Source: Planctomycetia bacterium
GTDB taxonomy: Bacteria; Planctomycetota; Phycisphaerae; Phycisphaerales; SM1A02
Assembly (NCBI GenBank): GCA_005790605.1
Contig: SXUI01000058.1
Coordinates: 1-64,000 of the forward strand
DNA: 64,000 nt
Reading direction: 5' to 3'
The notes below the pieces were generated by a model, which saw only the letters and a program-made list of their open reading frames with translations, was not told where the DNA came from and ran no database searches. Each line of letters begins with the position of its first letter. The first letter of the stretch is position 1. A program made the position numbers and the translations under genes. Below are positions 55,290-64,000 of this stretch, piece after piece.

Positions 55290-55762
55290 CGTCGCAGAGC
55301 GGACCAACTGACCGACAGGCGAAGTGGGATGAACGATTTCTTCAGGTCGCGGATGTGATCGCGCGTTGGAGCAAGGATCCCTCCCGCGGTGTTGGCTCAG
55401 TGATCGTGAGTTCAAGCATGCAGATCATCGCGACTGGATTCAACGGTCTCCCGCGCGGAGTCGAGGATCTGCCCGAGCGACTCGAACGACCAGTGAAATA
55501 CGATCTCATCGTGCACGCAGAACTGAACGCAGTTGTGCAGTGCGCGCGCAACGGAGTGAGCCCGGTTGGGAGCACGCTCTATTCAACATTTTTCCCATGT
55601 GTGCACTGTGCGCTTGCAATCGTGCAATCAGGCGTCGTTCGAGTGGTGACCTACGGGTTGACAGATGCGGATGCACACTGGCTTGAGTCGATCGGAAAGA
55701 GTGAGGCGATCCTGCGTGAAGCAGGCATCGCGTTTTCGATCGTCACTCGTTCCACCCACTAA
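55286..55762 (+). CDS. Deoxycytidylate (dCMP) deaminase family protein
   Basis: 158 residues. The zinc-binding set is HAELNAV (His and catalytic Glu) and FFPCVHCALAI (two Cys); GFNGLPRGVED matches the dCMP deaminase/ComEB group. It supplies dUMP for thymidylate synthesis. Coupling to the exported heme protein by a 4-nt overlap has no obvious functional reason. Its last 20 bp overlap the convergent protease gene. Confidence 0.92.
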   Translation: MTSQSGPTDRQAKWDERFLQVADVIARWSKDPSRGVGSVIVSSSMQIIATGFNGLPRGVEDLPERLERPVKYDLIVHAELNAVVQCARNGVSPVGSTLYSTFFPCVHCALAIVQSGVVRVVTYGLTDADAHWLESIGKSEAILREAGIAFSIVTRSTH

Positions 55763-57227
55763 GAAGTATTGAGAGGTCTGCTGCGCCCACCACGGCGTCA
55801 CCATTGAGATCTGCGCGAAGACCGAACCCACCGTTTCCCCACATATCAAGCAAGATGGTGAGATCGGCCGCGCCGACACGAAGGTCTGCGTTCAGATCAG
55901 CGAGTCGCGGTGCAACACCAGCGACCGACGTCGCTCCGTGTGCACTAACTCGCGCGGTTCCAAGTCGACCGGCGTAGTTTGGGTTCGTCGTGTCTGGATT
56001 GGGGCCGGTCGATCCAAGGACTGCTTTGACTTCTTGCGCAATCAACTCGTTGGGAACGAGCTCATCGGGCCAAGTTGGATGCTGTGCTCGGACGAGCGCG
56101 GCTGTACCTGCGACAAACGCGGAGGCGAAACTGCTCCCTTCCCACACGGCGATTCCATTGGGCACTGGTCCGATGACTGAAAACTGCGCACTCGGCGCGC
56201 CATCGACAAGCATGGAACGGCCGGGCGCAGACAGATCCAGTTTTTCACCAAAACTCGAGAACGGAGCCTTCACATCTATCCAGTCAAGTGCAGCGACACC
56301 GATGCATGCCTCATCCGACGCAGGGAATTCGCGCGGGTCCTCTGCATCACGATTGCCTGCCGCGGCGATGACGACAGCGCCGTTCTGCACAGCAAGCTCC
56401 ACCATGCTTTGCACGGCGGCAGAGTGATAGTCCGAGCCAAGGCTAAGATTGATGACATGCGCTCCATGACTCGACGCAAACTGCAAGGCTTTCGCGGTCC
56501 GGAAGTTTGAGGTTATGCCATCACTGTTGAGCACTCGGATCGGGAGGATCAACGCTTCAGGTGCAACCCAGTGCATGAGACCAGCAACGAATGTTCCGTG
56601 ACCAACCTGTTCATCAATCAATCCATCGCCATCATCGTCAACACCATTGCCGATATCGGCGAGCGGCTCTCCAGGGGCCATACTGACGCCCCACTGTGCA
56701 ACTCTTCCGCCGAGCGCCGGGTGTGAAGGCGTGATTCCGCCATCAATGATCGCGATGACGACGCCGGCGCCCATGGATCGCTGCCACGCAGCGTCGAGAC
56801 CCAAGAGATCTCGCGCGTACTGATTCTCAAGTGCGAGGTCATTGATTGGAAGGCTTGAAAGCCAGAGCGACCCCGTGCGTCCCTCTCCACTTGAACCTTC
56901 GTAATCCAGTTCGCCACTTTGAAGTTCACCTGCGAGAACTGCGTTCTCAAGGAAGAGTTCAACCTCAGCCGTGGAATGTCCTCTCGGAAGGATGTATCCG
57001 AGGAGTTCCCATCCCGTGGTTGGAATGCTGTCAACGGAAATCGGTGCGCCGAACTGCGCCGAAAAGGAGGCAACGAAGCGCGCGCGTTGCTTTGCGCTCA
57101 GCGTTTCAATCACCATCCGGCCAGGAATGAGCGGATCCTCAGCCGCAGCGACTTGCGCGAGGGCGGCGCATGTGAAGACGACGACCGCTCGGGATTTCAA
57201 GGACAGGGAAAACTTGCTCAGAGACAT
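55743..57227 (-). CDS. Secreted subtilisin-like (S8) protease with dockerin-like C-terminus
   Basis: 494 residues from ATG 57227. A signal peptide (VVVFTCAALAQVAAAED) is followed by a propeptide-like region (to about 110). The S8 domain has Asp162 (VVIAIIDGG), His210 (GHGTFVAGL), the oxyanion Asn292 in AAAGN, and Ser366 in EGSSFASAFVAG; the usual GTSMA is GSSFA here. Two dockerin-like calcium repeats end the protein: ADLNADLRVGAADLTILLD and ADLNGDAVVGAADLSILLS. The start at 57227 leaves 7 nt after the CHAT gene stop, which makes this the last gene of that operon. The longer start (57251) would overlap it. Confidence 0.93.
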   Translation of the reverse strand: MSLSKFSLSLKSRAVVVFTCAALAQVAAAEDPLIPGRMVIETLSAKQRARFVASFSAQFGAPISVDSIPTTGWELLGYILPRGHSTAEVELFLENAVLAGELQSGELDYEGSSGEGRTGSLWLSSLPINDLALENQYARDLLGLDAAWQRSMGAGVVIAIIDGGITPSHPALGGRVAQWGVSMAPGEPLADIGNGVDDDGDGLIDEQVGHGTFVAGLMHWVAPEALILPIRVLNSDGITSNFRTAKALQFASSHGAHVINLSLGSDYHSAAVQSMVELAVQNGAVVIAAAGNRDAEDPREFPASDEACIGVAALDWIDVKAPFSSFGEKLDLSAPGRSMLVDGAPSAQFSVIGPVPNGIAVWEGSSFASAFVAGTAALVRAQHPTWPDELVPNELIAQEVKAVLGSTGPNPDTTNPNYAGRLGTARVSAHGATSVAGVAPRLADLNADLRVGAADLTILLDMWGNGGFGLRADLNGDAVVGAADLSILLSGWNE

Positions 57228-57234
57228 TGTTCGC

Positions 57235-60105
57235 TCACGATCTTGATCCAATCACAGGGGTTTCACCTGTTGTTGCGAGACCAAGGAGCGCGAAGGGCGC
57301 CCACATGGGAAGTTGTACGCCGGATGCCCGTGCGCGCAATAGAGAATCTCGAAGCGCAGAACAATCTGCGTCGACGAGCGACGCGCCCGCTCGAATCGCC
57401 ACCGTTCTCAGACGATGGAAATCCTTTTGGATCTCCATCGTCTCGGGATCCGAGGCAGACCAATGGCTCACAAGGAGGCGGTGTGCCCCAGCCGCGATGA
57501 ACGCGCGTGCAAGTCCATTGAGTTCATCGCCAGCTTCCACAGCGTGTCTTCCGGTTTCACACGCGGAGAGCACGACGAGCTCGGCGTCGAGATGGAGCGA
57601 GAGAATGTCGCGAACAGGAAACCACCGATCTGCAAGCCGGAGTCCGCTTGCAGACGGCAATGAGTCGACGAATCGGCCGTGACACGCAACATGAATGATG
57701 GGGCGGTTCGAACATGCGTCTGCAAACTCCGATGCAGTTGCAGAGGCGCCAGCCAAAACATCGCAACCACCACAAAGGTCTCGCAACGCGGCCGCGACGA
57801 ATTCGCCCTCTTGTGTAATCAGAGGCGCGCGGGCATCCGCAACGGCGACGACGAGTGGGTGCCTGGATTGGAGCTCCTGTTGAGGTCTCGCTCGGCCCAG
57901 TGCGACGCTCGCACAAGGAGCTGACATCACTTCGAACTGCTCAATGAGGTGTGCCCCGGCGACGACGAGCGCTGCAAACGGAAGAGCGTGGAGCGATCCA
58001 TGAGGAACGATGATGAGGCGCGTTACTCCACCTAGTTGCTCGAAGACAGGAGAGACGAGGATTTCGCCAAGTGTCGTCAGCAGCTGGTGCGCAGCGTTGT
58101 TGTGGCGTGCTTGCTCCCGAGGCGTTGAAGGCCGCGCGCCGCGGCGGAGATGGAACGTGAGGCGTGACACCAGTTCGTCCGCAGCTGTCATGGACGCAAG
58201 CGCTCTCGTGACGGAGAGTCCGCGCTCAGTCGCAACAAAGACGATCAACTCATCCCCGATAGAGAAGTACTCGATCAACGCCGCTTGCGAAGGGACGCGT
58301 GCGAGAATCGAGGCAATGGGCACGGGCGTCGCAAACACACCTCGCAGTCCGCCGGTAGATTGATCAGAGAGGCGTCCATACTGCGCTTCGATCTCGCGAA
58401 TCTCACTGACAAGGCTCGATGCACCGCGCCGGGTTCCGGGTTGTGATCCGCGAAAATCCGCTGCGTACAGCGCGTTGAGTTTGGCGCGTAGGGCATGGAG
58501 TCCTTGCGCAGTTTCAGACTGTTCTGGGCTCTTAACTCGATCAACAGAACGAATCATGGCGTCAAGCAGCGCGCGCGACTTCGCTTGCTCTACGACTTCA
58601 AGCGCGCGAGCGCGCGAGCCATTATCTCCAAGCGAGAGAAGATCAAGAGCAAGGTCTTCGTACGGTCGAAGGCGGCTCCCTAACCATCCCGCTCTATACC
58701 GATCCGAGACGAGTGTGCCACGGACGCGCTCGACAGCGCGCACCGCCTGCTCAAGCAGCGCGATGGAGGCCCGGGCTCCGTCGATCCCTCGCACGACATC
58801 GGCGAGCGCGATGAGCGCATCTGCTTCGAGCACCGAGGTACCAGATTCTCGCGCGAGTTCAACTGCTCGCTGCGCAACTACCCGCGCATTCGACATGTCT
58901 CCCATTCTTCGCAGCGCATCCGCGTGAATGACAAGTGCTCGCGCGCGCTCACTGCTTACAACTCGATCATCTTCTAACACCAGATTGATGGTGTTCGTTG
59001 CTTCTGAGTATTCGCCACGAAGGAGAAGCAGCACAGCGCGCGTGAGAGCAGCTTCGCGCAATGATCGCGTGTCTTGATTACGCGCGAGTTCTTCGAAGGC
59101 TGCGAGAAGGACCGCGTCAGCCTCCGCGAGTTGTACGAGAGATAAGTGAACTCGCGCCATCGCGATCGAAGCGCGAACTCGCTCGGAGGACAACTTGAGC
59201 TGAGTCGCTTGCTCCAGTGCTTGCGAGAGGCCCGTAACACCCTCCGCAATCGCGCCGATCGAAACATGGAGCTCCGCTTCTTCGATTTCAAGCCGAATCC
59301 GGTGCGCCGCCGCTGATTCTGGGAGAAGCGCGCGGGCTGAGCGATACGCGTCGAGTGCATCTTGTATGCGTCCCTCTCGCGCATAGAGATCACCAGCGTT
59401 TCCTTGCACAACAGCGAGCGCCATCGTTGCTGGGGTTCCCGTGAGCAACGAAGTTGCGGTTTGGAAGGCTCGTTCCGCTTGGGCGAACTCATCGAGATAG
59501 ACGAAGTTCTCACCAAGCGCGTTCTGAATGAAACCCGAAGGGATGCGATCTGCGCGGAGCTCTGGTTCTGCGGCGCGAAGACGCGTCACCGCCGCCTCAT
59601 GCTCGCCTCGTGCCTTATGGATATTGGCGAGGTTGAGATCCGCCCGTGCTGCCGCCACGAGCTCGTTTGCTTGCGCGAGCGCGTTTCGCGCAGCAGAGCC
59701 GATGCGAAGCGCATCTTCGGTCCGCCCCAGCATCGTCCGCGCTGCAAGAGACGCAACAAGAGCGCGCGCGCCGTCCACAACGAATCCGTGGGCTTCTGCG
59801 ATCTGCGCGGCATCCTCCGCGACGGCGATCGCTTCTTCAGCGCGTCCACCGGAGGTTAACGCCATCGCGGTTGCACGCCGCGCGCGAACTCCGGCGCGAA
59901 CTGCGGCGACCGTTTGTGCGACTTCGATGAGCACATTTCCCGCGTGGATGGCGTCGGCAGGATTCGTCGACGCCAGGAGTTCGACCTGATCGCCCATCGC
60001 AAACAGCGCAGAGTCCCGTTCGCCGCAACGCGTGATCGACTCGAGCCGCTGTTCGGGCGACTGGGCAATCCAGCGTGCGAGATGCATTGGCGGGGGGTTC
60101 GACAC
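57235..60105 (-). CDS. TPR-CHAT domain protease (caspase-like)
   Basis: 956 residues, no signal peptide or membrane segment, so probably cytoplasmic. Residues 50 to about 560 are tandem tetratricopeptide-like helical repeats, such as NLANIHKARGEHEAAVTRLR and VQGNAGDLYAREGRIQDALD. The C-terminal CHAT domain (about 680-950) carries the catalytic dyad, His809 in IIHVACHGRF and Cys849 in LVVLSACETGRH; GSLHALPFAALV is the usual strand before it. CHAT proteases belong to the caspase/separase clan. It sits 3 nt after the 185-residue gene and 7 nt before the S8 protease gene. A regulatory cleavage role is plausible; its substrate is unknown. Confidence 0.92.
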   Translation of the reverse strand: MSNPPPMHLARWIAQSPEQRLESITRCGERDSALFAMGDQVELLASTNPADAIHAGNVLIEVAQTVAAVRAGVRARRATAMALTSGGRAEEAIAVAEDAAQIAEAHGFVVDGARALVASLAARTMLGRTEDALRIGSAARNALAQANELVAAARADLNLANIHKARGEHEAAVTRLRAAEPELRADRIPSGFIQNALGENFVYLDEFAQAERAFQTATSLLTGTPATMALAVVQGNAGDLYAREGRIQDALDAYRSARALLPESAAAHRIRLEIEEAELHVSIGAIAEGVTGLSQALEQATQLKLSSERVRASIAMARVHLSLVQLAEADAVLLAAFEELARNQDTRSLREAALTRAVLLLLRGEYSEATNTINLVLEDDRVVSSERARALVIHADALRRMGDMSNARVVAQRAVELARESGTSVLEADALIALADVVRGIDGARASIALLEQAVRAVERVRGTLVSDRYRAGWLGSRLRPYEDLALDLLSLGDNGSRARALEVVEQAKSRALLDAMIRSVDRVKSPEQSETAQGLHALRAKLNALYAADFRGSQPGTRRGASSLVSEIREIEAQYGRLSDQSTGGLRGVFATPVPIASILARVPSQAALIEYFSIGDELIVFVATERGLSVTRALASMTAADELVSRLTFHLRRGARPSTPREQARHNNAAHQLLTTLGEILVSPVFEQLGGVTRLIIVPHGSLHALPFAALVVAGAHLIEQFEVMSAPCASVALGRARPQQELQSRHPLVVAVADARAPLITQEGEFVAAALRDLCGGCDVLAGASATASEFADACSNRPIIHVACHGRFVDSLPSASGLRLADRWFPVRDILSLHLDAELVVLSACETGRHAVEAGDELNGLARAFIAAGAHRLLVSHWSASDPETMEIQKDFHRLRTVAIRAGASLVDADCSALRDSLLRARASGVQLPMWAPFALLGLATTGETPVIGSRS

Positions 60106-60108
60106 GGC

Positions 60109-60666
60109 TCATCCGATCGTGAGTGGAATGAGTGTGGGCGGCCTGTCGGTGGAAATCGCAATCTGCCAACTGCCCTTGGTGAGCGAAAGCGAGAAGGTTC
60201 CCGCTTCGTCTGTTGTAGTCGAGATCGCGGTGGCTGAGAGTGCACAGAAGCATCGCAGGCGAGCGTCGACATATGGATCGCCGTGGAGGTCAAGGACCTC
60301 GCCAATCACACGGGTGTGCCCAGCCATGGCCTGCGCGAGTTCGACACGCACGAGCAGAGAGGGCGTCTCAAACTGCAGTTCACTCACGATTGCATCATCA
60401 CGAAGTCCAATCAACGCAAGATCGGGTTCCGGATGGACGAGTCGAGCAAGCGTTGCGCCGAGTGCGCGTACGAGGTCATCGAGCGTGAGAATGCTTGCGT
60501 GCGCAGTGGCAAGCGCGGGAGCGAGGTTCCTGCCTAACTGGAGTGCTCGGGCGAGGGCGCTCTCGGGTGGTTCATTGAGAGCGTCGCATTGCAACAAAGA
60601 TAGAACGCCCTCGGTGTCTTCCACGGTGGCGATCGGCCGTCGAAATGGAGGCGGGACTGCACTCAT
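60109..60666 (-). CDS. Conserved-position small protein between ECF and CHAT genes
   Basis: 185 residues, no signal peptide or membrane segment. The N-terminal 100 residues are mostly helical. The C-terminal 65 (VIGEVLDLHGDPYVDARLRC ... TFSLSLTKGSWQIAIST) look like a carboxypeptidase-regulatory or transthyretin-like beta-sandwich. The start at 60666 is the ATG closest to the plausible fold; 50 upstream in-frame codons overlap the end of the sigma gene. It probably adapts between sigma factor and CHAT protease, but this is inference. Confidence 0.7.
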   Translation of the reverse strand: MSAVPPPFRRPIATVEDTEGVLSLLQCDALNEPPESALARALQLGRNLAPALATAHASILTLDDLVRALGATLARLVHPEPDLALIGLRDDAIVSELQFETPSLLVRVELAQAMAGHTRVIGEVLDLHGDPYVDARLRCFCALSATAISTTTDEAGTFSLSLTKGSWQIAISTDRPPTLIPLTIG

Positions 60667-60742
60667 ACAGTTGAGAGAGCCTAGGAGACGCGGTCCGAAT
60701 ACCGAGACTTGGCAAGTCGAAAGGAATAAATCTTGTTCGCGG

Positions 60743-61300
60743 TCAGAATCCCGAACCCTGCAAGATCGGTGTGAGTTTCTCGAGGCAGCGCTGGCGGGTT
60801 GGACCAATCGATCCAATGCGCATGCCGAGGCGCTCGCCTATGGCCGCGTAACTGGGCTCACCTGAGCACGCATAAAGTGCTTCAAGCAACTCTCGGCAGC
60901 GGCCACCAAGGCGCTCAAGCGCGTCCCGAACGAGTTGCCGGTCTCCTTCAAGTTGCACATCTGAGTCGGGATTCGCGCCTGAGGTTGCATCCCCTGCCAC
61001 TTCTTCCGTGAGTGCGGCGTGGGCACTTCCGCTTGTCTTTGCTGAGATTCGCCAACAAACACGGCGAGTTGTCGTCATGAGCCACGCTGCAAGTCGGTCT
61101 GATTCGCGTAGTTGCGGCAAAGATTGAAGGAGCGCCAGAAAGACCTGTTGGAACGCATCCTCTCCATCGTCTGGGCTTAGATTGGTCTTTCGAATCACGC
61201 TCCAAACGAGGCGTCGGTAGCGCTCAACAAGGTCGGACCACGCGAATTGGTCGCCATTGAGGCAAGCGCGGACGAGAGATGGATCGTCATGGAAGCGCAT
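60743..61300 (-). CDS. ECF-type sigma factor heading the CHAT operon
   Basis: 185 residues. Region 2 includes LVERYRRLVWSVIRKTNLSP and EDAFQQVFLALLQSLPQLRE, with AAWLMTTTRRVCWRI for -10 recognition. Region 4 (from about residue 120) has VRDALERLGGRCRELLEALY and the helix-turn-helix PSYAAIGERLGMRIGSIGPT. It leads the operon with the 185-residue protein, the CHAT protease and the S8 protease; no membrane anti-sigma is present, so control may be by an intracellular partner. A TACGCT hexamer 22 nt before the ATG is a possible promoter. It is divergent (113 bp) from a second ECF gene. Confidence 0.9.
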   Translation of the reverse strand: MRFHDDPSLVRACLNGDQFAWSDLVERYRRLVWSVIRKTNLSPDDGEDAFQQVFLALLQSLPQLRESDRLAAWLMTTTRRVCWRISAKTSGSAHAALTEEVAGDATSGANPDSDVQLEGDRQLVRDALERLGGRCRELLEALYACSGEPSYAAIGERLGMRIGSIGPTRQRCLEKLTPILQGSGF

Positions 61301-61413: not shown

Positions 61414-61983
61414 ATGGACTCTCGCGTGACAGACGATTGCCAGGACCTTGCCGCACTCAACGAAGGCGACCCCGACGCGGGGCGACGGTTATACGACCGC
61501 CACTCGCCACTCATTCTCTCGTTGTGTCGAAGTGGGATTCCAAGTCGTTCGATCGATGACGCTGAAGAAGCAATGCAGGAGACCTTTCTGCGTGCGTTTC
61601 GAGAGCGTCGCGATGTGACCGACTGTCGAGGATTTCGAGCTTGGATCTGCGGGATTGCACGATTCGTGTGTAGCGAGCGCCGTGCAGCTTGGCTTCGTCG
61701 TAAGCGCGATCCGGAGACAGGCATGCAGAACGAGATCCGCCGTGCACCCGAGAGCCCAAGTGCCTCACTCGAAAGGCAAGAAACCTCCGCACTCTTAAGT
61801 GCGGCGATCGACGCATTGCCTGCCGACGAGCGACTTGCGCTTCACTTGTTTTACATCGAACGCGATCCAGTCGACGCAGCCAAGCGCGCACTCGGGGTTT
61901 CCCGTCCAACTTTTTATCGACTCGTCGCAAAGGCGCGCGAGCTTCTCGCTATTCGCCTTGCAACGGAAGGAGTTCAACGATGA
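61414..61983 (+). CDS. ECF-type sigma factor coupled to VIT-VWA protein
   Basis: 189 residues. Region 2 has AEEAMQETFLRAFRERRDVT and GFRAWICGIARFVCSERRAA; region 4 has LPADERLALHLFYIERDPVD and the helix-turn-helix GVSRPTFYRLVAKARELL. The stop overlaps the start of the VIT-VWA membrane protein by 4 nt, the usual place of an anti-sigma factor. It is divergent from the CHAT-operon sigma gene, and the two proteins are not close copies, so this is not a recent duplication. Confidence 0.92.
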   Translation: MDSRVTDDCQDLAALNEGDPDAGRRLYDRHSPLILSLCRSGIPSRSIDDAEEAMQETFLRAFRERRDVTDCRGFRAWICGIARFVCSERRAAWLRRKRDPETGMQNEIRRAPESPSASLERQETSALLSAAIDALPADERLALHLFYIERDPVDAAKRALGVSRPTFYRLVAKARELLAIRLATEGVQR

Positions 61984-64000
61984 GGTCTTTACAACGCAAT
62001 CCTGAAGGTCGCGATCTGGTGAGTGGAGATGGTGACCTCCACGCCTTGCCACCCCATCCGCTTGATGGCGCACTTCGCGAGTGGCACGATGAGAATCGCG
62101 CTCGCGCCGAGGCGCTTCGTGACGAGACGCTCGCCGCTGCACGAACCGCAGGCGCGCTTCACCCAACCCCGCTTCGACTTCACCGAGCGACGCACTCGCG
62201 TGGATGGATCCCGCGACTGGTGGCTGCTGCTGCGCTTCTTGCCACGATGGTCACACTTGGCATTCTCTTCAGTGAAACCAGCCAAAAGTCAGCGTTCGCC
62301 CAAGGCGGGATGGTTCTTGTTCCAGAGGGAGGCGAACTGAGCGCGTTCGACGAGCATGGCTCCACGCTAGGACCATGTCCGCTCCAACATACCGATGTCG
62401 TGGCCGAGGCGAGCGGACCATTTGTTCGCACTGTGATCGAACAGGTGTATTCGAATCCGTATCCAGGGACGATTGAAGCGCTCTACACCTTTCCACTTTC
62501 AAACGCCGCTGCAGTCGATCGCATGACCATGATTGTTCGAGGGCCGAGTGGCGAGATCGTGGTCGAGAGTGAAGTGAAGGAACGAAACGCGGCTCGCATG
62601 ATGTACGAAGCTGCGCGCGAGTCTGGTTATGTCGCGAGCTTGCTTGAGCAAGAGCGGCCAAACATCTTCACGCAGTCGGTTGCAAACATCGAACCCGGCG
62701 CGACCGTGCGCATTCGTATCGCGACCGTGGAGCTCGTGCAGCGTCGGGATGGCGTGTACTCATGGAGTTTTCCAACCGTCGTTGGACCTCGGTACATCCC
62801 AGGCCGTGCAGAATCGGTACCCGCCTTGCCAGAAGGCTTTCAAGTTCGTGAGGGCGTTGTGCTCCGCGCTCCGGCAGCGATTGAAACGAAAGATGGCTGC
62901 TTCATTCCCGCGCCAAGACTGCTTGAACTCATGACTGCAGCAATCCCTCTTCGCACGCCCGATGGCGCGCGATTTGATGTCGTCATGCAGTCGGGTGAGC
63001 CGTGGCGGTTTGATGCGAAGTACGGCAACGGCAGCACCGAACACGGATCGCTCTGGCAGAGCGGCGTTGGCGAGATCAATGGTCGTTGGTTCTTTGCGAA
63101 GCTTGATGTCAATCCAGGAACAGGATTCTCGGGGAACACTGATCAAGTTCCTGATGCCGCGCGGATTACTCCGATGCCAGTGCATCCCACGGAGCGTGCT
63201 GGTCACGACCTCTCGATTCGGGTGAACCTCGATTCGGGTGGCGCGGCGTTCAAGAGCGTCGAGAGCACCCAACATCAGATTGATGTCGTGCAATCGACAC
63301 CCACGCGTCGCGAAGTGAAGCTCTCTGGCGGGTCCACTATTCCAAACAAAGACTTCATTCTCTCGTGGCAAGTGGACAACGCGTCGGTTGAGCCGGCGTT
63401 CTTTGCACATGTGAATGCGGAGGGATCAGGGCCACGACCTCAAGAGACGAAGGGAGGCTATTTCCTGCTCATGCTCGAGCCTCCCGCGCGCGTGGCAACC
63501 ACAGAAGTGCGACCTCGCGAACTTATCTTCGTGCTCGACACCTCTGGTTCGATGAATGGTTTCCCGATCGAGAAGGCGAAGGAGGTCATCAACAAGGCGA
63601 TTGCAAAGATGCGCCCGACCGACACCTTCAATGTCATCACCTTCGCGGGAGACACTCGCGTTCTGTGGAGCGAACCGAAGATTGCGTCCATTGAAAACAT
63701 TGCTGCCGCGCAAGCGATGATTGAGCGGCAAGAGGGCGGTGGCGGCACAGAGATGATGCAAGCGATCAACACCGCGCTCATCCAACCGGGGCGTAGCGCG
63801 CTGGAGCCATCGAGGTTGCTTGATCTCCCGGCGGACGGTCGTGTCGTGAAAGTTGCGGTGAAGAGCGACGCTCTTGATGTGAAGAGCATCCAACTCGCGG
63901 GCGGCCAGACCATTCCTGTTGAACTCGCGGTTGCGATGCCCGCGGCCAACGGCAAGACGTTCCTTCTTGAGGGCCGATGGTTGACAAAGGAGACAACGCG
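61980..64000 (+). CDS. Membrane VIT-VWA protein, putative anti-sigma partner (cut by window edge)
   Basis: 673 visible codons; the end lies beyond the right edge. A basic, helical cytoplasmic N-terminus (1-75) precedes one membrane segment (RLVAAAALLATMVTLGILFS, 79-98). A VIT domain follows (about 130-280), with VVAEASGPFVRTVIEQVYSN and NIFTQSVANIEPGATVRIRI, and then a VWA domain from about 512 with an intact DTSGSM site (520-525) and GGTEMM (588-593). The third metal motif (TDG) is not found where expected. The ATG overlaps the ECF stop by 4 nt. A membrane anchor with a cytoplasmic tail after an ECF gene suggests that the tail binds the sigma factor while VIT-VWA senses outside the cell; this is inference. 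Confidence 0.88.
   Translation, partial: MRSLQRNPEGRDLVSGDGDLHALPPHPLDGALREWHDENRARAEALRDETLAAARTAGALHPTPLRLHRATHSRGWIPRLVAAAALLATMVTLGILFSETSQKSAFAQGGMVLVPEGGELSAFDEHGSTLGPCPLQHTDVVAEASGPFVRTVIEQVYSNPYPGTIEALYTFPLSNAAAVDRMTMIVRGPSGEIVVESEVKERNAARMMYEAARESGYVASLLEQERPNIFTQSVANIEPGATVRIRIATVELVQRRDGVYSWSFPTVVGPRYIPGRAESVPALPEGFQVREGVVLRAPAAIETKDGCFIPAPRLLELMTAAIPLRTPDGARFDVVMQSGEPWRFDAKYGNGSTEHGSLWQSGVGEINGRWFFAKLDVNPGTGFSGNTDQVPDAARITPMPVHPTERAGHDLSIRVNLDSGGAAFKSVESTQHQIDVVQSTPTRREVKLSGGSTIPNKDFILSWQVDNASVEPAFFAHVNAEGSGPRPQETKGGYFLLMLEPPARVATTEVRPRELIFVLDTSGSMNGFPIEKAKEVINKAIAKMRPTDTFNVITFAGDTRVLWSEPKIASIENIAAAQAMIERQEGGGGTEMMQAINTALIQPGRSALEPSRLLDLPADGRVVKVAVKSDALDVKSIQLAGGQTIPVELAVAMPAANGKTFLLEGRWLTKETT

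Follow-up and report, generated by a model that had tools for sequence, protein, structure and literature searches.

Among described regulatory systems, Craspase/CASP (type III-E: Csx29, Csx30 and CASP-sigma) encodes together a protease with tetratricopeptide repeats and a CHAT domain (TPR-CHAT), a sigma inhibitor and an extracytoplasmic function (ECF) sigma factor; in this system RNA activates Csx29, which then cleaves the sigma inhibitor Csx30 (PMC10028731). The ECF54 sigma factors of Actinobacteria have conserved carboxypeptidase, subtilase and CHAT-domain neighbours, and regulation via proteolysis was proposed for them, the group being described as devoid of an anti-sigma factor (PMC8999054). 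In the RseA/DegS and RsiW systems, proteolysis of an anti-sigma factor frees the ECF sigma factor; these anti-sigma factors are membrane proteins, and a first, extracytoplasmic cut is followed by one within the membrane. ChrR, the partner of SigE, and other class-I proteins with the anti-sigma domain (ASD) are soluble and combine this domain with a C-terminal beta domain, which in ChrR is a cupin. In this study, we describe a cassette of four genes located in a stretch of 64,000 nucleotides (the window) of contig SXUI01000058.1 (assembly GCA_005790605.1, Planctomycetia bacterium), which encode an ECF sigma factor, a protein of 185 residues, a TPR-CHAT protease and a subtilase of the S8 family. 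On balance, we favour the view that they form a protease-gated circuit, in which CHAT would cut an anti-sigma factor (the 185-residue protein), free the sigma factor and thereby induce the anti-sigma, CHAT and S8 genes. The features of the locus are the following:

61300 (ATG) to 60743, minus strand: ECF sigma factor of 185 residues (Sigma70_r2, 1.7e-11, Pfam; TIGR02937 sigma70-ECF, 2.9e-20, NCBIfam)
60676..60702, minus strand: promoter-like element GTATT-N18-CTCT, putative target of the sigma factor, which recurs in relatives
60109..60666, minus strand: small protein of 185 residues, a putative soluble two-domain anti-sigma factor (outgroup-only hidden Markov model, family profile, zf-HC2 in orthologs)
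60436..60624, minus strand: residues 15-77 of this protein, helical, putatively an anti-sigma domain in shortened form, zinc motif absent (AlphaFold)
60400..60408, minus strand: G87-L88-R89 of this protein, conserved GxR in the linker, candidate cleavage site (alignment of 72 orthologs and low model confidence)
60115..60390, minus strand: residues 93-184 of this protein, C-terminal beta-sandwich, carboxypeptidase-regulatory/transthyretin-like (AlphaFold; CarboxypepD_reg below its cut-off)
60105 (GTG) to 57235, minus strand: TPR-CHAT protease of 956 residues, cytoplasmic (Pfam CHAT 8.5e-40, TPR_12 3.7e-13)
57679..57681, minus strand: codon of the catalytic His809 of CHAT
57559..57561, minus strand: codon of the catalytic Cys849 of CHAT
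57227 (ATG) to 55743, minus strand: S8 subtilase of 494 residues, exported, putative output (Peptidase_S8 1.9e-35; Sec-type signal peptide)

The four minus-strand genes lie where a preliminary description of this DNA had placed them, and the spacing that it gave for the last three, 3 nucleotides (nt) between the 185-residue protein and CHAT genes and 7 nt between the CHAT and S8 genes, was recovered as well. Its reading of the four as a single operon needs correction at the first gene, because the gap of 76 nt between the sigma and the 185-residue protein genes holds a conserved promoter-like element. The locus probably consists of a sigma gene plus a sigma-dependent unit of three genes (anti-sigma/CHAT/S8). 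The cassette CHAT gene is the only one with this domain in the genome of the window (3.03 Mb).

The 185-residue protein is best read, on grounds of homology, as a soluble class-I (ASD) anti-sigma factor, an identity that was missed when it was labelled an adaptor. A profile of 72 orthologs matched anti-sigma structures in the PDB over its first ~80 positions (RsiW, E 4.7e-4; DdvA, 1.6e-3; RslA, 3.2e-3; ChrR, 0.01), and a profile built from Acidobacteriota and Chloroflexota only retrieved the window protein at E 2.2e-5, with no false matches in 10,582 open reading frames (ORFs). The zinc anti-sigma motif HxxxCxxC, a subgroup feature of the ASD class, is present in 13/79 orthologs, and zf-HC2 (PF13490) exceeds the Pfam cut-off in the orthologs of loci L094, L119 and L068; it was also found in L162, L164, L176 and L178, adjoining CHAT in Chloroflexota. 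For the L094 ortholog, AlphaFold predicted a full four-helix ASD plus the beta domain, and the top Foldseek match of this model among 350,542 PDB chains was ChrR in the SigE-ChrR complex (7.8e-4), RsiW being matched too. The model of the window copy has helices at residues 15-29, 35-57 and 62-77, followed by a confident beta-sandwich at residues 93-184 with a predicted local distance difference test (pLDDT) score mostly > 90. The C-terminus had been described as transthyretin-like; despite this confident fold, the corresponding Pfam match (CarboxypepD_reg) reaches 22.7 bits for a cut-off of 32.3. No transmembrane segment was found in a scan of the small-protein family. Adjacency and homology suggest that the protein binds and inhibits its cognate sigma factor.

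The cassette anti-sigma factor resembles ChrR and other class-I proteins in joining a soluble ASD to a C-terminal beta domain and in the zinc motif of its orthologs. It differs from them in that its C-terminal domain is a beta-sandwich of the carboxypeptidase-regulatory type, its gene directly precedes that of a protease and, in the window copy, the ASD is short and zinc ligands are absent. The release of an ECF sigma factor by anti-sigma proteolysis, which we propose for the cassette, is shared with RseA/DegS and RsiW; in contrast to these, the protease here belongs to clan CD and no export or membrane signals were found in the sigma factor, the anti-sigma factor or CHAT.

With respect to the protease, the protein scored 137 bits against the Pfam CHAT model (cut-off, 24), which places it among the CHAT proteases of clan CD, and its His809/Cys849 dyad, previously noted as intact, is invariant in 17 homologs of 26-40% identity. 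The CHAT profile matched the Csx29 structures of the PDB at E 1e-11 and separase at 0.012. The CHAT domains of the cassette and Craspase are therefore detectably homologous, and the logic of the proposed circuit is the same. However, the NCBIfam Csx29 model (NF041237) gave E 5.8e-7 and 28.7 bits for a cut-off of 300, and the cassette anti-sigma factor, a classical ASD plus beta-sandwich, had no detectable match to Csx30, either in the PDB-chain profile search to E 5 or among the best Foldseek matches, on the assumption that Csx30 chains were included. A further difference is the S8 subtilase, which is the constant fourth gene of the cassette. Cas7-11, CRISPR RNA (crRNA) and Csx31 were not seen among the adjacent annotated genes of the window, the genome not having been searched for Cas7-11. 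Given the lack of detectable kinship with Csx30, a Csx29 score far below the cut-off and no adjacent CRISPR part, the cassette would work like the output arm of Craspase without being a member of it. As for ECF54, its carboxypeptidase-type, subtilase and CHAT neighbours are all present at the window cassette; this is a likeness by neighbours, and ECF54 differs in its description from Actinobacteria and without an anti-sigma factor. A full-text literature search for a described sigma/CHAT/subtilase operon returned the ECF54 statement only.

The association of the four genes was examined in GTDB genomes, which were scanned with CHAT as the only query and yielded 80 loci in Planctomycetota, Acidobacteriota, Chloroflexota and Armatimonadota-labelled genomes; in the class of the window, CHAT relatives were present in 19/248 genomes. 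Loci were picked by CHAT similarity alone and the other three genes were then sought by profiles. The preliminary description had proposed a search for conserved neighbourhoods of this composition, and the order sigma/small protein/CHAT/S8 was indeed found in 78 of the 100 mapped loci, which include a few genomes present twice; contig ends truncate most of the others, and a single locus (L116) has CHAT without cassette partners. It must be noted that the sample is made of metagenome-assembled genomes with uneven labels, and that the partner-gene profiles were refined over successive rounds from these very loci, a circularity that the controls address only in part. The cassette-sigma profile gave E 1e-57 to 1e-78 for cassette sigma factors versus 1e-35 to 1e-39 for an unrelated divergent sigma factor of the same loci, and none of the three partners was found within 7 kb at four unrelated TPR-CHAT loci (Nonomuraea, Streptomyces), these actinobacterial negative controls having been drawn from a plasmid collection. 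Pairwise distances are correlated among the four genes (r 0.66-0.83, without phylogenetic control), as for genes inherited together. Beyond the four genes, clustering of the flanks revealed recurring neighbours at lineage level only. The gene order of the cassette is ancient.

An ortholog-profile search of Chloroflexota revealed many more cassettes, in which a more divergent sigma factor and a protein with zf-HC2 and CarboxypepD_reg adjoin TPR-CHAT. Because of these divergent cassettes, the trio of sigma factor, ASD anti-sigma factor and TPR-CHAT is wider than the S8-linked cassette. This second class in Chloroflexota comprises L150, L162-L173 and L176-L179, with several copies per genome in some cases. 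Regarding the labels, L091 is named as Rubrobacter sp., but GTDB groups it in the same phylum as Chloroploca (Chloroflexota) and its label is therefore probably wrong; those of L047, L048 and L052 (Limnohabitans, Kuenenia) likewise seem misassigned, given these cassettes.

Across both strands of the 64-kb window, the pattern GTATT-N16-19-CTCT is matched only once, by the GTATT-N18-CTCT site at 60702-60676. On the Planctomycetota side, the GTATT-type element was present in the sigma/anti-sigma gap of 8/46 loci (0.02 in shuffles) and its relaxed form, GTAT[CT]-N15-19-CTC, in 29/46 (0.27 in shuffles, 0 on the reverse strand). In Acidobacteriota and Chloroflexota, S8 is spaced away from CHAT and an element of the type TGT[AC]TTTT-N14-GC[AT]CTGT precedes it in 22/25 spaced gaps, with identical spacing. 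A matrix trained only on these pre-S8 sites finds strong independent copies in the sigma/anti-sigma gap and also behind S8; in these relatives, the promoters of the subtilase and of anti-sigma/CHAT thus share one motif. As a fixed pattern, the element occurred in 21/27 sigma/anti-sigma gaps, 21/30 gaps after CHAT and 0/25 regions upstream of sigma, with 61 forward versus 2 reverse matches in 341 kb. Eight whole genomes gave 22 promoter matches versus 0 control matches, and the genome-wide matches precede anti-sigma genes, the cassette S8, another exported S8 (L144), exported CHRD/FG-GAP, Rieske and other proteins. A motif search upstream of the sigma genes found no family-wide motif, the element being located only downstream of sigma. 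This co-occurrence suggests that the cassette sigma factor reads the promoter element.

In the genome of the window, a cassette-like promoter match (G000:C38:22714-22741, L186) is located 47 nt ahead of the gene of an exported FG-GAP-like protein, and FG-GAP is also found in a regulon member of the acidobacterial relative L123. Just before the sigma start, GCTTACACTG recurs in the close relatives L023, L045, L051 and L062, and the 7-mer TACACTG is present in 9/47 regions upstream of sigma. The sequence before the sigma start may represent a housekeeping -10, in which case the leader would be very short.

The S8 subtilase had been described as exported, in agreement with its signal-peptide-like N-terminus, a trait of nearly all cassette S8 proteins (58/69 above a strict hydrophobicity cut). 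The dockerin repeats also attributed to it were not sustained: the C-terminal repeats are weak, and both domain models remain below their cut-offs (Dockerin_1, E 0.022, Pfam; GC-type dockerin, 17.7 bits, NCBIfam). A tandem S8 pair lies behind CHAT in two loci (L039:8614-12109 and L075:3638-6677). In another, L110:556-8317, there are tandem cassettes, the first with sigma, anti-sigma, CHAT and S8 genes and the second with sigma, anti-sigma and CHAT genes up to the contig end.

A candidate cleavage site is offered by the linker of the anti-sigma factor. R89 is the sole invariant residue of the family (72/72 orthologs) at a mean column identity of 22%, G87 is conserved in 71/72, and the residue after R89 is G, S, D, A or T in 71/72. 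The motif is located at the linker between the anti-sigma helices and the beta-sandwich, and residues 81-88 have pLDDT < 50 in the window model. An invariant GxR in such a linker would suit a protease site.

The gene order, the orthology, the identity of the anti-sigma factor (by homology) and the promoter element with its locations were obtained computationally. We infer, in addition, that CHAT cleaves the anti-sigma factor, where this cut is made, that the cassette sigma factor reads the promoter element and that the TPR part acts as a sensor. In the proposed mechanism, a promoter upstream of the sigma gene would drive expression of the sigma factor, which the soluble two-domain anti-sigma factor would keep inactive. 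On sensing a cytoplasmic stimulus, the TPR part would switch on the His809/Cys849 protease, which would cut the anti-sigma factor between the helices and the beta-sandwich, R89 or its vicinity being the most likely site. Once free, the sigma factor would use the internal promoter to transcribe the three-gene unit (anti-sigma, CHAT and S8), with feedback, and raise the exported subtilase and, in relatives, other exported proteins too. The preliminary description had suggested that the target of CHAT may be the 185-residue protein or the sigma factor and that the subtilase is the output, a reading that the evidence favours and that is sharpened here to predicted cleavage of the anti-sigma factor. 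We give even chances to the broader proposition that the cassette is a widespread, CRISPR-independent module, in which a separase-like TPR-CHAT cleaves a soluble ASD anti-sigma factor at an invariant arginine of its linker and so releases an ECF sigma factor, with exported proteins as the regulon, and that the CHAT/anti-sigma/sigma trio of Craspase is a CRISPR-captured version of the same design.

Several observations weigh against this mechanism. In the window copy, the anti-sigma domain is missing its first helix as well as the zinc motif, and the model of this copy alone gave no anti-sigma match in Foldseek; for this reason the search was repeated with the zinc-type ortholog. Since the helical part is shortened and without zinc ligands, the assignment of the window copy as an anti-sigma factor rests on orthology. 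In the genome of the window, the pattern GTATY-N17-GCTCTC, modelled on the window site, gave 3 matches (control, 0) when ~3 are expected from base frequencies, and of these one is the site before the FG-GAP-like protein and one falls inside a long ORF; the stricter TGTATT-N17-CTCTG had 1 match in eight planctomycete genomes. The indications of a regulon in this genome are suggestive only. The conservation of R89 could be due to folding or to contact with the sigma factor. Moreover, the Csx30 cut sites of Craspase are reported to be non-conserved (PMC11106740), so conservation is no required mark of a cut site. The separase residue that reads the arginine at P1 is D2151, and a Craspase has K670 at that position (PMC9729208). 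In an alignment read by eye, this position corresponds to M890 of the window CHAT. A P1 arginine pocket of the separase type thus has no support, and neither does arginine at P1 receive any from this residue. Nevertheless, M890 was not counted as a refutation of cleavage at arginine, because other acidic residues of CHAT (D757, E766 and D886) are invariant in the 17 homologs. The pocket residues do not settle the question of the arginine site.

Other explanations must be considered for the same genes. In a switch of the ChrR type, the beta domain of the anti-sigma factor would sense a ligand and the sigma factor would be released uncut, CHAT being an induced effector on another target. The closest structural match, ChrR, also has two domains, and CHAT lies downstream of a sigma-type promoter, the position expected of an output. 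However, the adjacency of anti-sigma factor and CHAT persists in the Chloroflexota cassettes, with their different sigma factor and zf-HC2 anti-sigma factor, and the sole invariant residue is located in the linker, outside the beta domain; we regard this switch as doubtful. Degradation of the sigma factor by CHAT, keeping it off with no anti-sigma factor involved, has been proposed for ECF54 on the basis of its similar neighbours (PMC8999054). In the cassette, an anti-sigma factor is present and CHAT is encoded behind a presumed sigma-dependent promoter, so that such degradation would need pure negative feedback, and we assign it a small probability.

The preliminary description had also placed CHAT in the frame of immunity and cell death. 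In a module of this kind, CHAT would kill or activate a killer, and the subtilase would be a co-effector. CHAT proteases act in Craspase and gasdermin operons (PMC9729208), and the patchy distribution within the class of the window would suit such a role. But the window CHAT protein had no match among the PADLOC defence models, no anti-sigma ortholog was matched on any plasmid searched, and the outputs are exported subtilases, with a signal peptide on S8, and surface-type proteins, the regulon of relatives comprising exported proteins and not toxins or nucleases. This frame has no support here, and an immunity module seems improbable. Finally, the two genes separated by 7 nt in the window could indicate direct processing of the pro-subtilase by CHAT before export. 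The export signal is on S8 and none is found on CHAT, and in Acidobacteriota and Chloroflexota S8 is spaced and has its own promoter element, a layout that suits a regulated output over a partner; we give this possibility hardly any weight. Cleavage of the anti-sigma factor by CHAT remains the explanation that we favour.

Next to the cassette, a second, divergent ECF sigma gene overlaps the gene of a VIT/VWA protein (TIGR03788-like) at 61414-63998 on the plus strand of the window. The N-terminus of the latter has a weak anti-sigma-like match plus a membrane segment. The divergent sigma gene recurs beside the cassette in close relatives (L023, L025, L043, L045, L046, L049, L052 and L062). Both genes probably constitute an independent sigma/anti-sigma pair.

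The idea of this neighbourhood is partly known for Actinobacteria from ECF54. As far as the literature searched shows, what is new is that the carboxypeptidase-like neighbour would be an anti-sigma factor in this family, together with the range of phyla, the promoter inside the cassette, the regulon and the invariant motif of the linker. The precedent of Craspase consists of a single CHAT protease, controlled by RNA, and a single sigma inhibitor that it cuts. If our interpretation is true, transcription is switched in several phyla by proteases of the caspase/separase type with no CRISPR involved, and the CRISPR version has the appearance of a component taken over from elsewhere. If ECF54 is the same system, the cassette may supply its missing anti-sigma factor. 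The conserved promoter offers a reporter and a list of target genes, and R89 a test at a single codon; through them, what bacterial CHAT proteins cut, and why, would become a directly testable question.

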